A stretch of 63,411 nucleotides of DNA, from the NCBI GenBank assembly GCA_020344055.1, contig CP070813.1:359936-423346 (forward strand), read 5' to 3'. The stretch is from Candidatus Zixiibacteriota bacterium (lineage in GTDB: Bacteria > Zixibacteria > MSB-5A5 > UBA10806). The position numbers and the translations under genes were made by a program. The notes under the pieces are model-generated. The model was not told the origin of the DNA, did no database searches, and was given only the letters and a program-made list of their open reading frames with translations. Below, piece after piece: positions 50,554-58,411 of the stretch. How positions within the stretch are numbered: position 1 is the stretch's first letter; every line of letters starts with the position of its first letter.

Positions 50554-51102
50554 ATGGAAAAAATTAAAAGACCGGCTATTTTTCTGGATCGCGATGGTGT
50601 GCTGATCGTGGAGCGAGATTTTTTAGTAGATCCCGATGATGTAGAGTTCTATCCCGAAACAATAGAGGCGCTGGCCGCTGTAAAGAACGATTACATGAAA
50701 ATCGTAATTTCCAATCAGTCCGGAATCGCAAGAGGCTATTTTTCATCCGAGGATGTCGAAAGAGTCAATTCTGAAATATCCCGGATGCTCGGCGACAAAG
50801 GGATTTTCATCGATGCCTGGTTTTTTTGCCCTCATGGTCCCGGGGACGGATGTTCCTGCAGGAAACCTCGCCCCGGCATGATATTGGAAGCCGCCGAGAG
50901 ATTAAACATCGATCTGGAAAAAAGCTGGATAATTGGAGATAAATCGTCGGATATCGAAGCCGGTAAAGCCTCCGGTATAAAAACGATAATGGTGAATACG
51001 GGATATGGGGGATCCGAACCGGGGGCTTCAAAGGTCGATCCCCATTACACCGCTTCCAATATCGGCGATGCCATCGAATATATAAACAGGAGCTCGACTT
51101 GA
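50554..51102 (+). CDS. gmhB: D-glycero-D-manno-heptose-1,7-bisphosphate 7-phosphatase (GmhB-like HAD)
   Basis: This 182-residue HAD-family phosphatase has nucleophile motif IFLDRDGVLIVE, the SNQSGIARGYFS motif, a zinc site CPHGPGDGCSCRKP and the metal motif GDKSSDIEAGKASG. The zinc loop is characteristic of GmhB and related histidinol phosphatases. The enzyme makes a heptose-1-phosphate for GDP- or ADP-heptose. Other heptose genes are absent here, so the product may be used in this polysaccharide or in LPS core. The stop overlaps the TTG start of the SDR gene. Confidence 0.86.
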   Translation: MEKIKRPAIFLDRDGVLIVERDFLVDPDDVEFYPETIEALAAVKNDYMKIVISNQSGIARGYFSSEDVERVNSEISRMLGDKGIFIDAWFFCPHGPGDGCSCRKPRPGMILEAAERLNIDLEKSWIIGDKSSDIEAGKASGIKTIMVNTGYGGSEPGASKVDPHYTASNIGDAIEYINRSST

Positions 51103-52064
51103 AAAAGAATATGCTTATAACCGGCGGTGCCGGATTCGTGGGTTCGTTTCTTTCCGAAGAACTCTTGAAAAGAGGATACTCCGTATGCGCAATCGATAAT
51201 CTTTCCACCGGGAAGCTGGAAAATATCGCGCATCTGAGAGAAAATCCTGATTTCGAACTGGTGATCGGCAACATTATGAATACGGACCTGATGGATGATC
51301 TCGTGGCCCGATCGGAAACAGTGTTCCATCTTGCCGCCGCCGTCGGAGTCAGGCTTATAATAGAGAGGCCGGTGGAAACCATCGAAACCAATATCCTGGG
51401 AACGGAGATAATTTATAAGCTCGTTAACAAGCATAAAAAGAAGGTAATCATAACCTCCACCTCCGAAATATACGGGAAGAACAATGAAATTCCCTTCAAA
51501 GAGACCGCCGATTCGGTCTACGGCCCCACCACCAAGTCCCGATGGAGCTACGCCTGCAGCAAGGCCATCGACGAATTCCTGGGATTCGCCTATCATCACG
51601 AGAAAAAGCTGCCCCTGGTTATCGTGCGATTATTCAATACCATCGGACCGCGCCAGACCGGCACCTACGGCATGGTGGTGCCGACCTTCGTACAGCAGGC
51701 CCTTCTGAGACATCCCATCACCGTCTTCGGAGATGGAGAGCAGACCAGATGTTTCGCCAACGTCAAGGACGTAACCTGGGCCGTGGCCGAGCTCGCCGAA
51801 ACGCCCGAAGCCCTGGGCCAGGTCTTCAACATCGGAACCACCGAAATGATATCTATCGGGGACCTGGCGGCTCTGGTCAAAAGACTGTGCAACTCCGAGT
51901 CCGAGATTGTAAATATGGCTTACGATAAAGCCTATGAAACCGGTTTCGAGGATATGCAGCAACGAAAACCGGATATCTCCAAAATACAAAAATTGATCGG
52001 GTACAAGCCGAAGATAAACCTTGAAAAAACAATAGAGGAAATTATAGAATATTTCAAGCAATGA
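51099..52064 (+). CDS. NAD-dependent sugar-nucleotide epimerase/dehydratase (extended SDR)
   Basis: This 321-residue extended short-chain dehydrogenase has the NAD-binding ITGGAGFVGSFLSE, the catalytic Ser in ITSTSEIYG and the YxxxK pair in SYACSKAIDEF. RLFNTIGPRQTGTYGMVVP is typical of UDP-glucuronate decarboxylases and 4-epimerases. The exact reaction is not clear. The start is TTG at 51099, overlapping gmhB by four bases, and the end overlaps the next gene by four bases. Confidence 0.85.
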   Translation: MKKNMLITGGAGFVGSFLSEELLKRGYSVCAIDNLSTGKLENIAHLRENPDFELVIGNIMNTDLMDDLVARSETVFHLAAAVGVRLIIERPVETIETNILGTEIIYKLVNKHKKKVIITSTSEIYGKNNEIPFKETADSVYGPTTKSRWSYACSKAIDEFLGFAYHHEKKLPLVIVRLFNTIGPRQTGTYGMVVPTFVQQALLRHPITVFGDGEQTRCFANVKDVTWAVAELAETPEALGQVFNIGTTEMISIGDLAALVKRLCNSESEIVNMAYDKAYETGFEDMQQRKPDISKIQKLIGYKPKINLEKTIEEIIEYFKQ

Positions 52065-54331
52065 ATATCTATTATGCCGGATCGTTTTTCGTTGCCTTTG
52101 CCTCGGTATTGGCGCTGATACCGTTTGTTAAGAGATGGTCGTTGAAAGTCGGTTTCCTGGATCTGCCGGCCGGGGTAAAGGATCATAAAAATCCTACTCC
52201 TCTGGGAGGAGGCCTGGCCGTATTTATCGGATCGGTGGTTCTGGTAAATATTCTGCTGATCGCGCTCGGTTTTAAATACTCTCCATCCGCAGTCGGGCTG
52301 ATTGCCGGCTCCGTCATAATCTTATTGATAGGCGTATATGATGACTTTAATCAGATGAGCGCTTTCGATAAACTCCTGGGGCAGCTTGTCTGCGTCTTTG
52401 TTTTTTTGTTTTTTGCCGAAAGACACCCGCCCATTCTCTCCCTGCAGGCGTACTATCTGCTGTCGGCGGTATGGATCCTCGGGATAATGAACGCTATAAA
52501 TTATATCGATAACCTGGATGGGCTTTGCGGAGGCGTATCTCTCACGGTCGCGCTCGGTTTCGGTATTCTGTTTATAATTAAGGGGATGCCGATCTTCGCC
52601 ATAATTAGCTTCGCGCTGGCGGGGGGAGCCCTTGGCTTTTTAAAATATAACCTGTCCCCGGCATCGATTTTTCTCGGGGACGGCGGCAGTCTGCTTTTCG
52701 GATTCGCCCTGGCCTGTCTCGGGATCGTCCATTTTAGCACCTCCAAATCAATTACCGTCGCGTTGTCTCCCATTCTGATAATGGCGTTCCCGGTTTTCGA
52801 TATGACCCTGGTCACCATAACCCGTCTGAATAAGGGGCGAAAAGTATACGTGGCCAGCAAGGACCATGCCTGGGATATGATCAGGATTTTGGGATTTTCA
52901 AAGGAAACCACGGTATATATAATTCTGGCAATTAACCTCACTCTCGTAGCGTCGGGAGTGGTTATATTTTTTATGGGAGAATCTCCTCTGCAGGTATTTC
53001 TTGTATTCGCCTTCGGTTTGTTGCTCGCGTTCGTGGGAGTACAACTATACCGGAATTTTCTTTACCTCAGGGAAAGCATAGAGACCGTCTTTGTCGATCT
53101 GGTGGCGGTGAATCTGTCTTTTATAATATATTTCGCCATTAAATATCATAGCGGATTGTTTGGATATTATCCTCCTGTTTCTTTGGAGGCGCTTGTAATT
53201 CCACTGGCCTGGATAAACGTCTTCTGGGTGGTTCTTTGTTCCGCGGTCGGTTTGTACGATATCTATTTCGAGCGCCCTTTCAAACGGCAACTTAGCTCGC
53301 TTCTTAAGGGTGTGGCCGTCGGTCTGGTTATATTTCTGATTGCCAATTACAATCCCCGGCAGGGAATGCAGATTTCTATTACCTCTATCGGTCTGTTCCT
53401 CTTAATCCTGCTGTTGCTCAACGCCCTTTTCAGGCGATTGATTTTCTCGGTTTTTAAGAAAAGATACTTTGCCGCCCGAAAATCTTTAAAGGCCCTTGTC
53501 ATATGCCCCGACGGCGCCACGCCCGATTATTCCTCCATTGAGCCGCTTAAAAGATATTATAATATTACGGGGTATCTCGGCAACGCCGGATATGAAGGCC
53601 TGGATAAAATCGGCGAAATGGATGATCTGACCGAAATCCTTCGCAATAGAAGAATCGCGAGAGTAATTGTCGACTACGGGGATGGAAATTACAGTGACAT
53701 AGCGAATCTCTTTTCCTCGGCCTATTACATGGAGACCTTGTTTCTCGTAAATGATAGATCGGCGGCAAACAAAAGAGGATTCAGGATCTTGCGGACTATT
53801 TTTAATAATAACTACGTCATTTCCATTAAACACAGAGCGTTGTTCTCCGCCATTCTAAAAAGGCTTGCGGATTTTGTGCTTGCCGGCGCGGCTCTTATTT
53901 TAACTTTCCCGTACCCGATTTATAAAATCCTGAAAGCTCGCCTCAAAAAGGTAAAACCGATATCCGAAATCCAGATCGTGACTCTCGGCGAAAAAGAGGG
54001 AAAAATCAAAATAGATCCTTCCCTCTCCCGATCGCCCTTTAATCGTAGCTTCTGGGCTTTGCTCTCGGTAGTAAAGGGGGATCTGTGCCTGTACGGAACT
54101 ACCATAACGACCATGGAGGAATATAAGTCGAATTTAAACAGCATCCCCGGATACTGGAGGAAATTTCTGGCTAAGCCCGGATTATTCGGTCCCGGCTATT
54201 CCGGAAAAACGCCCCTGGAAAGGTTCAAACTCGATCTGGCATACATGGAAAAAACATCAACATGGGGAGATTTCTGGATGATTGTCAAATCGCTGGTCGG
54301 GATTTCTCCTGTCAAAACAGAGGAATTATAG
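52061..54331 (+). CDS. Fusion of WecA/MraY-type phosphoglycosyltransferase with a degenerate WbaP-like domain
   Basis: This 756-residue inner-membrane protein has two parts. Residues 1-330 form a polytopic sugar-1-phosphate transferase of the WecA/MraY group. It has [13 protein letters not shown], the Asp pair in GVYDDFNQ (94-95), NYIDNLDGL (148-155), FLGDGG around Asp207, and [14 protein letters not shown] where a HIHH motif is usual. Residues 345-465 hold about four helices and 470-590 a Rossmann-like segment. Residues 595-750 look like the catalytic region of WbaP/ExoY transferases ([66 protein letters not shown]). However, the usual LDELPQ with the catalytic Asp-Glu is replaced by FNRSFW near 660-665. 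The first half probably starts glycan synthesis on undecaprenyl phosphate, and the second half is probably inactive. Confidence 0.85.
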
Positions 54332-54332
54332 A

Positions 54333-55607
54333 ATGCTCGATTTGAAGTTTATAAGATCGAATCCCGATACCGTCAAACTGGCCGCCAGGAATAAAGGCGA
54401 GAAAGTAGATATCGATAAGATACTGGAGTTGGATAAAAAACGCCGCGACATAATCGGCGAGGTTGAAAAACTCAAATCCGAAAGAAACGTCGCCACGGCC
54501 GAAATCGCCAGGTTGAAAAAGGAAGGCAAGGACGCCTCCGGCCTTATTGCGGAAATGAAAAAGCTGAGCGACAGGATATCCGGGCTCGACGATGAACTGC
54601 GGGAAACCGAAACGGAAATCAATGAAAAGTTACTGTGGGTGCCGAATATTCCGCATGAATCGGTGCCCGTGGGGAAAACCGATGACGATAATGTGGAAAT
54701 AAGAAAATGGGGGGAGTTGAAATCCTTCGATTTCAAGGTCAGGCCTCACTGGGAAATAGGCGAGATGATCGGGGGATTGGATATTCCCCACGGCGCCGGC
54801 GTGAGCGGATCGGGATTTTATTTTTTGGCGGGACCGCTGGCCGGGCTGGAACGGGCCCTTATCAATTTCATGCTGGATCTGCATACCCGGGAACACGGAT
54901 ACTCCGAGGCCTGCATCCCTTACCTGGTGGGGGAGAGCGCCATGCGGGGTACGGGCCAGATACCCAAGCTCAAAGAGGATATGTATCAGATCGAAGGCGA
55001 TGGACTTTATCTCATCCCCACCGCGGAGGTTTCCCTGACCAATATTAATGCCGGGGAGATACTGCCCCCCGGTTCCCTGCCGAAAAAAATCTGCGCCTTC
55101 TCTCCCTGTTTCCGTCGTGAAGCCGGCTCCTACGGCAAAGAAACCCGCGGAATCGTTCGAGTGCACCAGTTTCATAAAGTCGAGATGGTAAAGATAGTCG
55201 AGCCCGAAACCTCTTACAACGAACTCGAATCTCTTCTTGAAAACGCTGAAAGAGTCTTGCAGTCGCTCGATTTGCCGTATAGGGTCCGCGTGTTGTGCAC
55301 CGGAGACCTCTCCTTTGCGGCGGCCAAGTGCTACGATATCGAAGTCTACGCTCCCGGAATGGATTCCTGGCTGGAGGTATCCTCATGCTCCAATTTCGAG
55401 GATTTCCAGGCCCGCCGGATGAACCTCAGGTACCGGCCGGATAAAGGAGCCAAACCCATTTTCCCGCATACCCTGAATGGATCGGGGGTGGCCCTGCCGA
55501 GAACAGTCGCCGCCATCCTCGAAAATTGCCAGACAAAAGACGGGCAGGTTGTAATTCCTGAAACCCTGCGTCCCTATATGGGGGGAATGGATAGAATCGG
55601 GAAATAA
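54333..55607 (+). CDS. serS: Seryl-tRNA synthetase
   Basis: This 424-residue class II enzyme has an N-terminal coiled-coil arm (about 30-100) that binds the long arm of tRNA-Ser. The catalytic core contains [12 protein letters not shown], motif 2 [22 protein letters not shown] and motif 3 [20 protein letters not shown] chose the ATG at 54333, one base after the previous stop, with AGGA before it. The frame is open 51 bases further upstream only inside the previous gene. Length is normal. Confidence 0.97.
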
Positions 55608-56851: not shown

Positions 56852-58411
56852 ATGCAGAGCGAAACTGAAAAAACGATACTCTGGGTCGATGACGAGATCG
56901 ACCTTCTGTCCGCGCACCTGATTTACTTGCGGGAACGCGGCTACAGGGTGATGGAAGCCGCCAACGGCGATGACGCCATAGAGATGGTTAAAAATGAGAC
57001 CATCGATCTTGTTCTGCTGGATGAAATGATGCCCGGACGCGACGGTCTCTCCACTCTGGAAGGCATCAAAGACCTTAATCCGCTCCTACCCGTGATAATG
57101 GTAACCAAATCCGAGGAAGAGCATCTCATGGATGAGGCCATCGGGAAAAAAATCGACGATTATCTTACCAAACCGGTGAACCTGAGCCAGATCCTCTCCG
57201 CCATTAAGAAGATTCTCGATAAACAGCGTCTGACGGAAAGCGCCCTTACCCGCGAATTTGTAATGGAGTTTTCGAAAATTACTCAGAAATTATCCGCTCC
57301 CCTCGATTGGAAAGACTGGATAGATATTCATGTCAAGCTTTCCACCATCGATCTCGAACTGGAGAGTTTCCGCGACGTGGGGCTCAAACAATCGTTTAAA
57401 GATCTGAAAAAACAGAGCGCCTCCGAATTCGGAAGATATATTATCCGCAGCTATCCGACATGGATCCAGGATCAAACCGGCCCCCCGTTTTCGGTCGATG
57501 TTGTGAACGACCATGTCGTGCCCCTGCTTAAAAAAGGAATCCAGACCTTTTTCATCGTAATCGACTGTATGAGACTCGATCAATGGCTCATGATCGAACC
57601 CGTACTGGCGGAGTATTTTAATATCAGGAAGAATTATTATTATTCCATACTCCCCACCGCTACGCCGTTTTCCAGAAACGCCATTTTCGCGGGCGAATTT
57701 CCCGATGAGGTTTCCAGGCTGAATCCCGATCTCTGGAGCAGATCCAGTAGCGAGGCCAGCAGAAACCGTCATGAAAGACAGCTTCTGGATAGGAATCTGG
57801 CCCTCAAGGGCTTAAAACTCAAATCCGAGCCCAAATATGTCAAGGTCCTTGATATCGAGGAAGGGCAAAATGTCGCCAAAAAGATAAAATCCTACTCGTC
57901 CGTGCCTTTGCTGTCCATTGTATATAACTTCGTCGACAAAATGATTCACGGTCGCAGTGAATCGGAAATTTTGCAGGAGATTGCCCCCAATGAGGCCGCT
58001 TTCAGATCCCTGGTGAAATCCTGGTTTGAATATTCTCATCTGCTCGATATGCTGATTACACTTTCAAGCTGGGATTGCGCGGTCGTCATAACCACCGACC
58101 ACGGATCGGTGATCGGGACTAGGGGCGCCATCGCCCACGGTAAAAGGGATACCTCTACCAACCTGCGCTATAAATACGGGGACAACCTCAACTGCGATCC
58201 CAAACAGGCCTGGCTTGTCAAAGACCCCAAATCCCTGCATCTCCCGGTATGGGGATTGGGAACCACATATATTATCGCGCTCGAGGATTACTACTTCGTA
58301 TACCCCACCAACTATTCGGAATATAAAAGGCATTATCTTAACAGCTTTCAGCATGGGGGCATATCTCCCGACGAGATGATCCTGCCCGTCGCTGTCCTGC
58401 GTCCCAAATAA
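56852..58411 (+). CDS. porX: PorX-like response regulator with PglZ (alkaline-phosphatase-like) domain
   Basis: This 519-residue protein has a receiver domain (about 5-125) with the acidic pair in WVDDE and phospho-acceptor Asp57 in LLDEMMPGRDG. A helical linker follows, then a PglZ domain (about 205-519). In the PglZ domain FIVIDCMRLDQW has metal-binding Asp residues, LPTATPFSRNAIF places a Thr at 271, and ITTDHGSVIG has the Asp-His metal pair. T271 is also the number of the active-site Thr known from Porphyromonas PorX. PorX regulates type IX secretion and hydrolyses short oligonucleotides. The kinase gene ends two bases upstream. The T9SS cargo at 6760 is consistent with the system being active in this organism. 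Confidence 0.9.
   Translation: MQSETEKTILWVDDEIDLLSAHLIYLRERGYRVMEAANGDDAIEMVKNETIDLVLLDEMMPGRDGLSTLEGIKDLNPLLPVIMVTKSEEEHLMDEAIGKKIDDYLTKPVNLSQILSAIKKILDKQRLTESALTREFVMEFSKITQKLSAPLDWKDWIDIHVKLSTIDLELESFRDVGLKQSFKDLKKQSASEFGRYIIRSYPTWIQDQTGPPFSVDVVNDHVVPLLKKGIQTFFIVIDCMRLDQWLMIEPVLAEYFNIRKNYYYSILPTATPFSRNAIFAGEFPDEVSRLNPDLWSRSSSEASRNRHERQLLDRNLALKGLKLKSEPKYVKVLDIEEGQNVAKKIKSYSSVPLLSIVYNFVDKMIHGRSESEILQEIAPNEAAFRSLVKSWFEYSHLLDMLITLSSWDCAVVITTDHGSVIGTRGAIAHGKRDTSTNLRYKYGDNLNCDPKQAWLVKDPKSLHLPVWGLGTTYIIALEDYYFVYPTNYSEYKRHYLNSFQHGGISPDEMILPVAVLRPK

Follow-up and report, generated by a model that had tools for sequence, protein, structure and literature searches.

A WecA-type initiating transferase fused to a degenerate large monotopic transferase in Zixibacteria, and its relatives in other phyla

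Known initiating transferases

Two classes of initiating phosphoglycosyl transferase (PGT), polytopic and monotopic, are treated as alternative and unrelated routes to the first committed step of bacterial glycan assembly. Both classes draw on a limited pool of undecaprenyl phosphate (Und-P). The polytopic class includes WecA and MraY (PF00953, TIGR02380). In the monotopic class, the large enzymes WbaP, WcaJ and EPS_sugtrans (TIGR03025, PF13727 plus PF02397) are built in the order four transmembrane (TM) helices, Rossmann domain, hairpin and PGT domain.

WbaP forms a dimer, for which its Rossmann domain and hairpin are mainly responsible. The enzyme is potently inhibited by UMP, and uridine nucleotides bind to its DUF (PMC10942596). 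A large PGT of Myxococcus is activated by a regulator that has been proposed to promote the PGT dimer (PMC12802240). An Asp-Glu dyad and Mg are described as belonging to the active site in all members of the monotopic superfamily (PMC10519829). In the bifunctional Bi-PGTs, a monotopic PGT domain is joined to another functional domain (PMC10942596), and FlaA1/PglF/WbpM-like dehydratases carry the same type of N-terminal module, with four TM helices and a Rossmann domain.

The protein described here is a variant of these known PGT families. It is encoded in the window, that is, the whole stretch of 63,411 nucleotides from a Candidatus Zixiibacteriota bacterium that was analysed. It shares the domain order of WbaP, WcaJ and EPS_sugtrans but lacks the Asp-Glu dyad and the PRP arginine, and is preceded by a whole WecA-type enzyme. 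This N-terminal half has the fold and catalytic Asp motifs of WecA and MraY, from which the fusion differs in having HAWD for HxHH and about 420 additional residues. Unlike in the Bi-PGTs, the fusion partner is the unrelated other class of initiating transferase, and the monotopic site of the window protein is dead. The FlaA1-like enzymes have a dehydratase domain where the fusion has a PGT domain. No WecA-monotopic PGT fusion is described in the literature found, mostly in titles and abstracts, and a prior description is possible.

Architecture of the fusion protein

The fusion gene, its parts and its two neighbours are as follows.

51099-52064, + strand: SDR (NAD epimerase/dehydratase), upstream, overlapping the fusion by 4 nt; a neighbour in most relatives
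52061-54331, + strand: whole fusion gene, 756 aa, WecA-type polytopic PGT plus degenerate large monotopic PGT
52061-53056, + strand: polytopic (WecA/MraY-like) half, residues 1-332; PF00953, MraY fold match
52340-52345, + strand: D94-D95 (DD motif)
52508-52519, + strand: D150-N-L-D153 (NxxNxxDNxDG motif)
52679-52681, + strand: D207 (LGD motif)
52865-52876, + strand: H269-A-W-D272, at the WecA HxHH position; variable across the fusion family
53057-53476, + strand: four-helix TM bundle of large monotopic PGTs, residues 333-472; TIGR03025 match from 345, model helices
53477-53836, + strand: Rossmann-like domain (PF13727, the DUF of WbaP) plus beta-hairpin, residues 473-592; AlphaFold2 model
53837-54328, + strand: degenerate WbaP/PglC-like catalytic domain, residues 593-756; PF02397, PglC fold match
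54044-54049, + strand: Arg662-Ser663 at the catalytic Asp-Glu position, aligned on the GDMS/GPRP stretch
54333-55607, + strand: serS, next gene downstream; adjoins the fusion in nearly all relatives

The reading frame is open from 52061 to 54331. Pfam assigns Glycos_transf_4 (PF00953) to the window protein with an E value of 3.9e-30 (105.4 bits against a cut-off of 27) and Bac_transf (PF02397) to its C-terminal part only (E 7.7e-8), while PF13727 scores 13.2 bits, below its cut-off of 25. The NCBIfam models EPS_sugtrans/WcaJ match residues 344-624 and the C-terminus.

An AlphaFold2 model built from a 19-row alignment (pLDDT 81.6, pTM 0.77) places the TM bundle helices at residues 336-363, 375-396, 407-428 and 440-470. 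In this monomer model, the Rossmann domain is followed by hairpin-like strands (575-578 and 585-588) positioned as in WbaP. When the full-length model is compared with the PDB by Foldseek, it matches MraY (E 1.6e-9, TM 0.76), WbaP 8t53 (E 5.1e-9) and PglC 8g1n (E 1.6e-4, TM 0.66); the C-terminal half alone matches WbaP 8t53 at 1.2e-13 and PglC at 8.0e-7. TM-scores are 0.66-0.69 for PglC and low, 0.38, for whole WbaP, presumably owing to domain orientation in the model. A phmmer search with the C-terminal half against PDB sequences gave no meaningful match, and the likeness to WbaP and PglC comes from fold comparison only.

Residues 333-756 are a complete large monotopic PGT, with four-TM bundle, Rossmann domain and WbaP/PglC-like domain. 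The initial annotation had placed a WecA/MraY-type half and a WbaP-like half in one 756-residue chain, and on this Pfam, NCBIfam and AlphaFold2/Foldseek agree. The superposition it proposed gave the expected outcome: the C-terminal domain aligns structurally with PglC, and WbaP is a match as well.

Active-site motifs

The polytopic half was said to keep its Asp motifs, and D94, D95, D150, D153 and D207 are indeed present and invariant in 19 relatives. It was also said to read HAWD where HIHH is expected. This is true of the window protein, but HAWD is confined to that protein and L005; other relatives have HSSH, HTSH, DSSPY or NNSPR at this position.

In the monotopic half, the canonical Asp-Glu pair aligns with Arg662-Ser663, which bears out the claim that the catalytic pair is lost, and the Arg of the PRP motif is gone as well (GTTIT for GPRPE). 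Column conservation across 19 relatives reveals no conserved Asp-Glu pair elsewhere in the domain, so that a relocated pair, which had been named as grounds for rejecting the idea, was not found. The invariant columns are K600, R601, D604, P617, G673, G679, P706, G707, Y728 and S733. The reentrant-helix motif KRxxD is thus invariant, in keeping with the retained membrane-entry helix that had been proposed, and so is the PG of the KPG motif.

The Asp-Glu pair is missing in all 19 aligned Zixibacteria fusions. Glu-Lys/Arg stands at this position in several families, and the fusions of families f14-f17 read IEKLP, LEKIP, LERLP, LEYIP, VERFP and similar, while in f1 and f2 the motif is no longer recognisable. 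PF00953, PF02397 and TIGR03025 each match 19 of the 19 fusions, and PF13727 matches 13 (best 1.1e-17). The distant members are far nearer the family models than the window protein, with PF02397 values down to 7e-37. Loss of the upstream GPxFFxQxRxG stretch, another feature of the initial annotation, does not hold for the family as a whole, since distant members, L014 among them (PLVRRRCLGKGG), still have remnants of it. The monotopic domain is degenerate rather than missing.

Distribution in Zixibacteria and other phyla

Recurrence in related genomes had been set beforehand as decisive, and it was found: 20 of the 133 genomes of the Zixibacteria phylum, in families f1, f2, f14, f15, f16 and f17, contain the full-length fusion, the Asp-Glu pair being present in no aligned member. 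Two further fusions in these genomes run off contig ends. The nearest named relative is in Candidatus Zixiibacteriota isolate Ww191, with 53% identity over the full length.

When 387 relatives, the additional ones among them belonging to other phyla, were searched with a profile, the four-part fusion turned up in G327, G185, G346 and G205; counts for the other phyla are samples from the matches listed. Further searches within those phyla, with the proteins read by sequence, place the fusion in three phyla beyond Zixibacteria, where it appears in three states. In the first, both sites are intact, with LDEIPQ-type, GPRPE-type, DGLDG and HIHH-type motifs; this state is seen in at least 14 proteins from two phyla (at least 12 in the phylum of G185 and at least 2 in that of G327).

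In the second state, found in the phylum of G205, the monotopic dyad is replaced. Among the matches listed, the fusion is full-length in 33 of 40 genomes of this phylum, an in-frame stop being present in two of them, and Tyr-Lys takes the place of Asp-Glu in 31 of 32 proteins, the other having Asn-Arg. This Tyr-Lys group (L167-L196, L149 and L150) nearly always keeps GPRP (GPRPE) and RPGxTG. Adjoining the Tyr-Lys fusion in family f92 are genes (L149:1042-3180:- and L150:2002-4131:-) for a GT2 glycosyltransferase that is joined to a PF13727 module and also to a second degenerate PGT domain.

The third state is the mirror image of the window protein, with an intact monotopic site (IDEIPQ/GPRPE) and a degenerate WecA half. 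It comprises at least four proteins (L207-L210, from G406, G419, G427 and G458), in which DD has become NSK or is missing, DGLDG has become DNIKG or EEVKG, GD is lost, and PF00953 matches at 1e-3 to 1e-5, below the cut-off. In the WecA tree, the four WecA halves nest within the doubly intact clade of their phylum (SH-aLRT 99), and for this reason the mirror-image proteins probably descend from a bifunctional ancestor that lost its polytopic head.

At least six proteins of about 600 aa from other phyla combine WecA with PF13727 and have no PGT domain by Pfam, and a seventh was recognised by a profile built for this analysis; these WecA plus four-TM/PF13727 proteins are L152, L154, L155, L156, L158, L159 and L160. 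No record in the plasmid collection has 80% of the L198 fusion covered at a single location.

Selection, exchange of halves and origin

The dead halves are under purifying selection where this can be estimated, with dN/dS of about 0.06-0.34. For the pseudo-PGT domain of the window protein against L004 the value is about 0.09-0.16, with an NG86 estimate of about 0.09; NG86 gives 0.06-0.16 for the dead domain in the Tyr-Lys group, and other Zixibacteria pairs have 0.10-0.34, the highest values being based on few substitutions and several pairs with saturated dS being left unused. Together with the recurrent loss of Asp-Glu, this supports the initial view of the domain as a pseudo-enzyme.

The two halves have different nearest relatives. 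Compared with L004, the window protein is 73% identical in the pseudo-PGT domain and 66-73% outside the WecA half, but only 45% within it; compared with L005, it is 64% identical in the WecA half and 41-48% in the rest. The comparison with L004 therefore shows stronger conservation in the pseudo-half than in the WecA half, and so does that of L014 with L017. The nearest relative switches from L005 to L004 near residue 375; relatives thus appear to have swapped WecA halves and to have kept the monotopic half in place, which would explain why HAWD is common to the window protein and L005 only.

A single fusion event, as judged from the WecA halves, was rejected, since one clade is not accepted by the AU test (p 0.00024). 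For the monotopic halves one clade is not rejected, and they split from stand-alone enzymes with a support of 83 in trees that are quick searches, in which degenerate sequences may attract each other. The sequences are compatible either with several fusions or with one fusion whose WecA half was later replaced, and the latter is plausible because exchange is seen in family f1.

Proposed function

The reading that is preferred here, at a probability of roughly 0.55, is that the WecA half initiates a glycan and that the dead half is a non-catalytic scaffold for dimerisation, regulation or docking. The WecA-type half would transfer HexNAc-1-phosphate, probably from a UDP-sugar, to Und-P, and the glycan would serve the neighbouring exopolysaccharide or O-antigen-type locus. 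Initiation is supported by the invariant Asp residues and the MraY fold, and by the locus itself, which contains Wza/Wzz-like, WlbA/B-like, DegT, WecB-like and GT4 genes; other Zixibacteria fusions also adjoin glycan genes. In this locus the Wza/Wzz-like genes are for export, and those of WlbA/B-like, DegT and WecB-like type concern aminosugars. Apart from the fusion, the genome encodes a stand-alone WecA and a stand-alone monotopic PGT with its site intact, which is counted as further support. The monotopic enzyme (IDEIPQ; L033:1486-2382:-) contains an arginine-rich insert (~GGRRQMNLDVNDRRQFSDRRK) that splits its Pfam match.

The C-terminal half would be a whole large monotopic PGT that lost its active site and was kept for non-catalytic reasons, as a membrane-anchored platform for dimerisation or regulation or as a dock for the next glycan enzyme. 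Its four-TM bundle, Rossmann domain and hairpin would work as they do in WbaP and might sense UMP or UDP-sugar. Since UMP is a product of both PGT classes, we infer that a UMP-responsive module on WecA would be chemically sensible. A non-catalytic job is probable because relatives in other phyla are intact in both halves or have the opposite half dead. A scaffold is further supported by the absence of the dyad, with no replacement pair, in 19 of 19 fusions, by purifying selection, by the conservation of Tyr-Lys itself across a phylum and by the exchange of the WecA half while the pseudo-half stays. The occurrence of WecA with PF13727 and no PGT domain suggests that WecA benefits from the accessory module alone. 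Several points count against this reading, among them the saturated dS of several pairs and the few substitutions behind the highest dN/dS values. Activity or donor of the WecA half may be altered, because HAWD lacks the last His of HxHH, and nucleotide sensing may be lost in the window protein, in which PF13727 is sub-threshold.

A new ligand-binding or catalytic role is a possible but rather unlikely alternative, in which the C-terminal domain would bind Und-P, Und-PP-sugar or UDP-sugar and pass the ligand on to, or receive it from, the WecA half or the glycosyltransferase that follows, instead of serving as a dimer scaffold only. The invariance of KRxxD and of the PG of KPG would suit such a role, as would the conservation of the replacement residues, which are Tyr-Lys in 31 of the 32 proteins of that group and Glu-Lys/Arg across several families of Zixibacteria, and the GPRPE of nearly all the Tyr-Lys group; however, the window's own family has GTTIT for GPRP, which leaves little of a nucleotide-sugar pocket. 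It is very improbable that the domain is still a monotopic PGT acting through other residues. Distant relatives do keep a Glu at the nucleophile position (LEKLP type), but both positions are Arg-Ser in the window protein, the PRP Arg is lost and no Asp-Glu is conserved elsewhere, and the dyad is described as part of every active site in the superfamily (PMC10519829).

Graded degeneration, from distant members near the family model to the worn sequences of f1 and f2, is what would be expected if the C-terminal half were a decaying, functionless relic of a bifunctional ancestor. This is improbable and largely refuted by the evidence for selection, and the reading frame that stays open in 20 genomes from six families, the fold conserved in the AlphaFold2 model and the greater conservation of the pseudo-half in two comparisons also argue against it. 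An assembly or frameshift artefact, for which no supporting evidence was found, is refuted by the single-contig genome and by independent genomes in which the ORF is likewise full-length and the gene order is the same; its probability is negligible.

Returning to the scaffold, the odds are about even that these proteins, from several phyla, make up a family of two-headed initiating transferases that was not described before, with both PGT classes in one chain, either head open to inactivation, and a dead head conserved to regulate or scaffold the live one. With doubly active, monotopic-dead and polytopic-dead states in one family, a natural experiment is available. It allows one to ask whether the four-TM/Rossmann module regulates PGTs generally, what a pseudo-PGT does and how a cell shares out Und-P when one complex serves two donors. 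That an entire phylum has the Tyr-Lys replacement in common speaks for a non-catalytic function under selection.

Gene order around serS

In most relatives the fusion is preceded by the SDR gene and followed by serS, a histidine kinase, a response regulator with an alkaline-phosphatase-like domain, and then tsaE, tsaB, rimI, accD and folC. The response regulator, PorX-like and encoded at 56852-58411 in the window, lies downstream of serS in most genomes examined and has a match in 133 of 133 genomes of the phylum, in some to the receiver domain only. In several fusion-free Zixibacteria families, the slot before serS is occupied by FlaA1/WbpM-like dehydratases with an additional N-terminal four-TM bundle (L122, L124-L127, L130, L131 and L133). 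The proteins of about 800 aa in this slot in f12, f18 and f19 were considered as fusions and rejected, as they are FlaA1-like dehydratases with the extra four-TM bundle.
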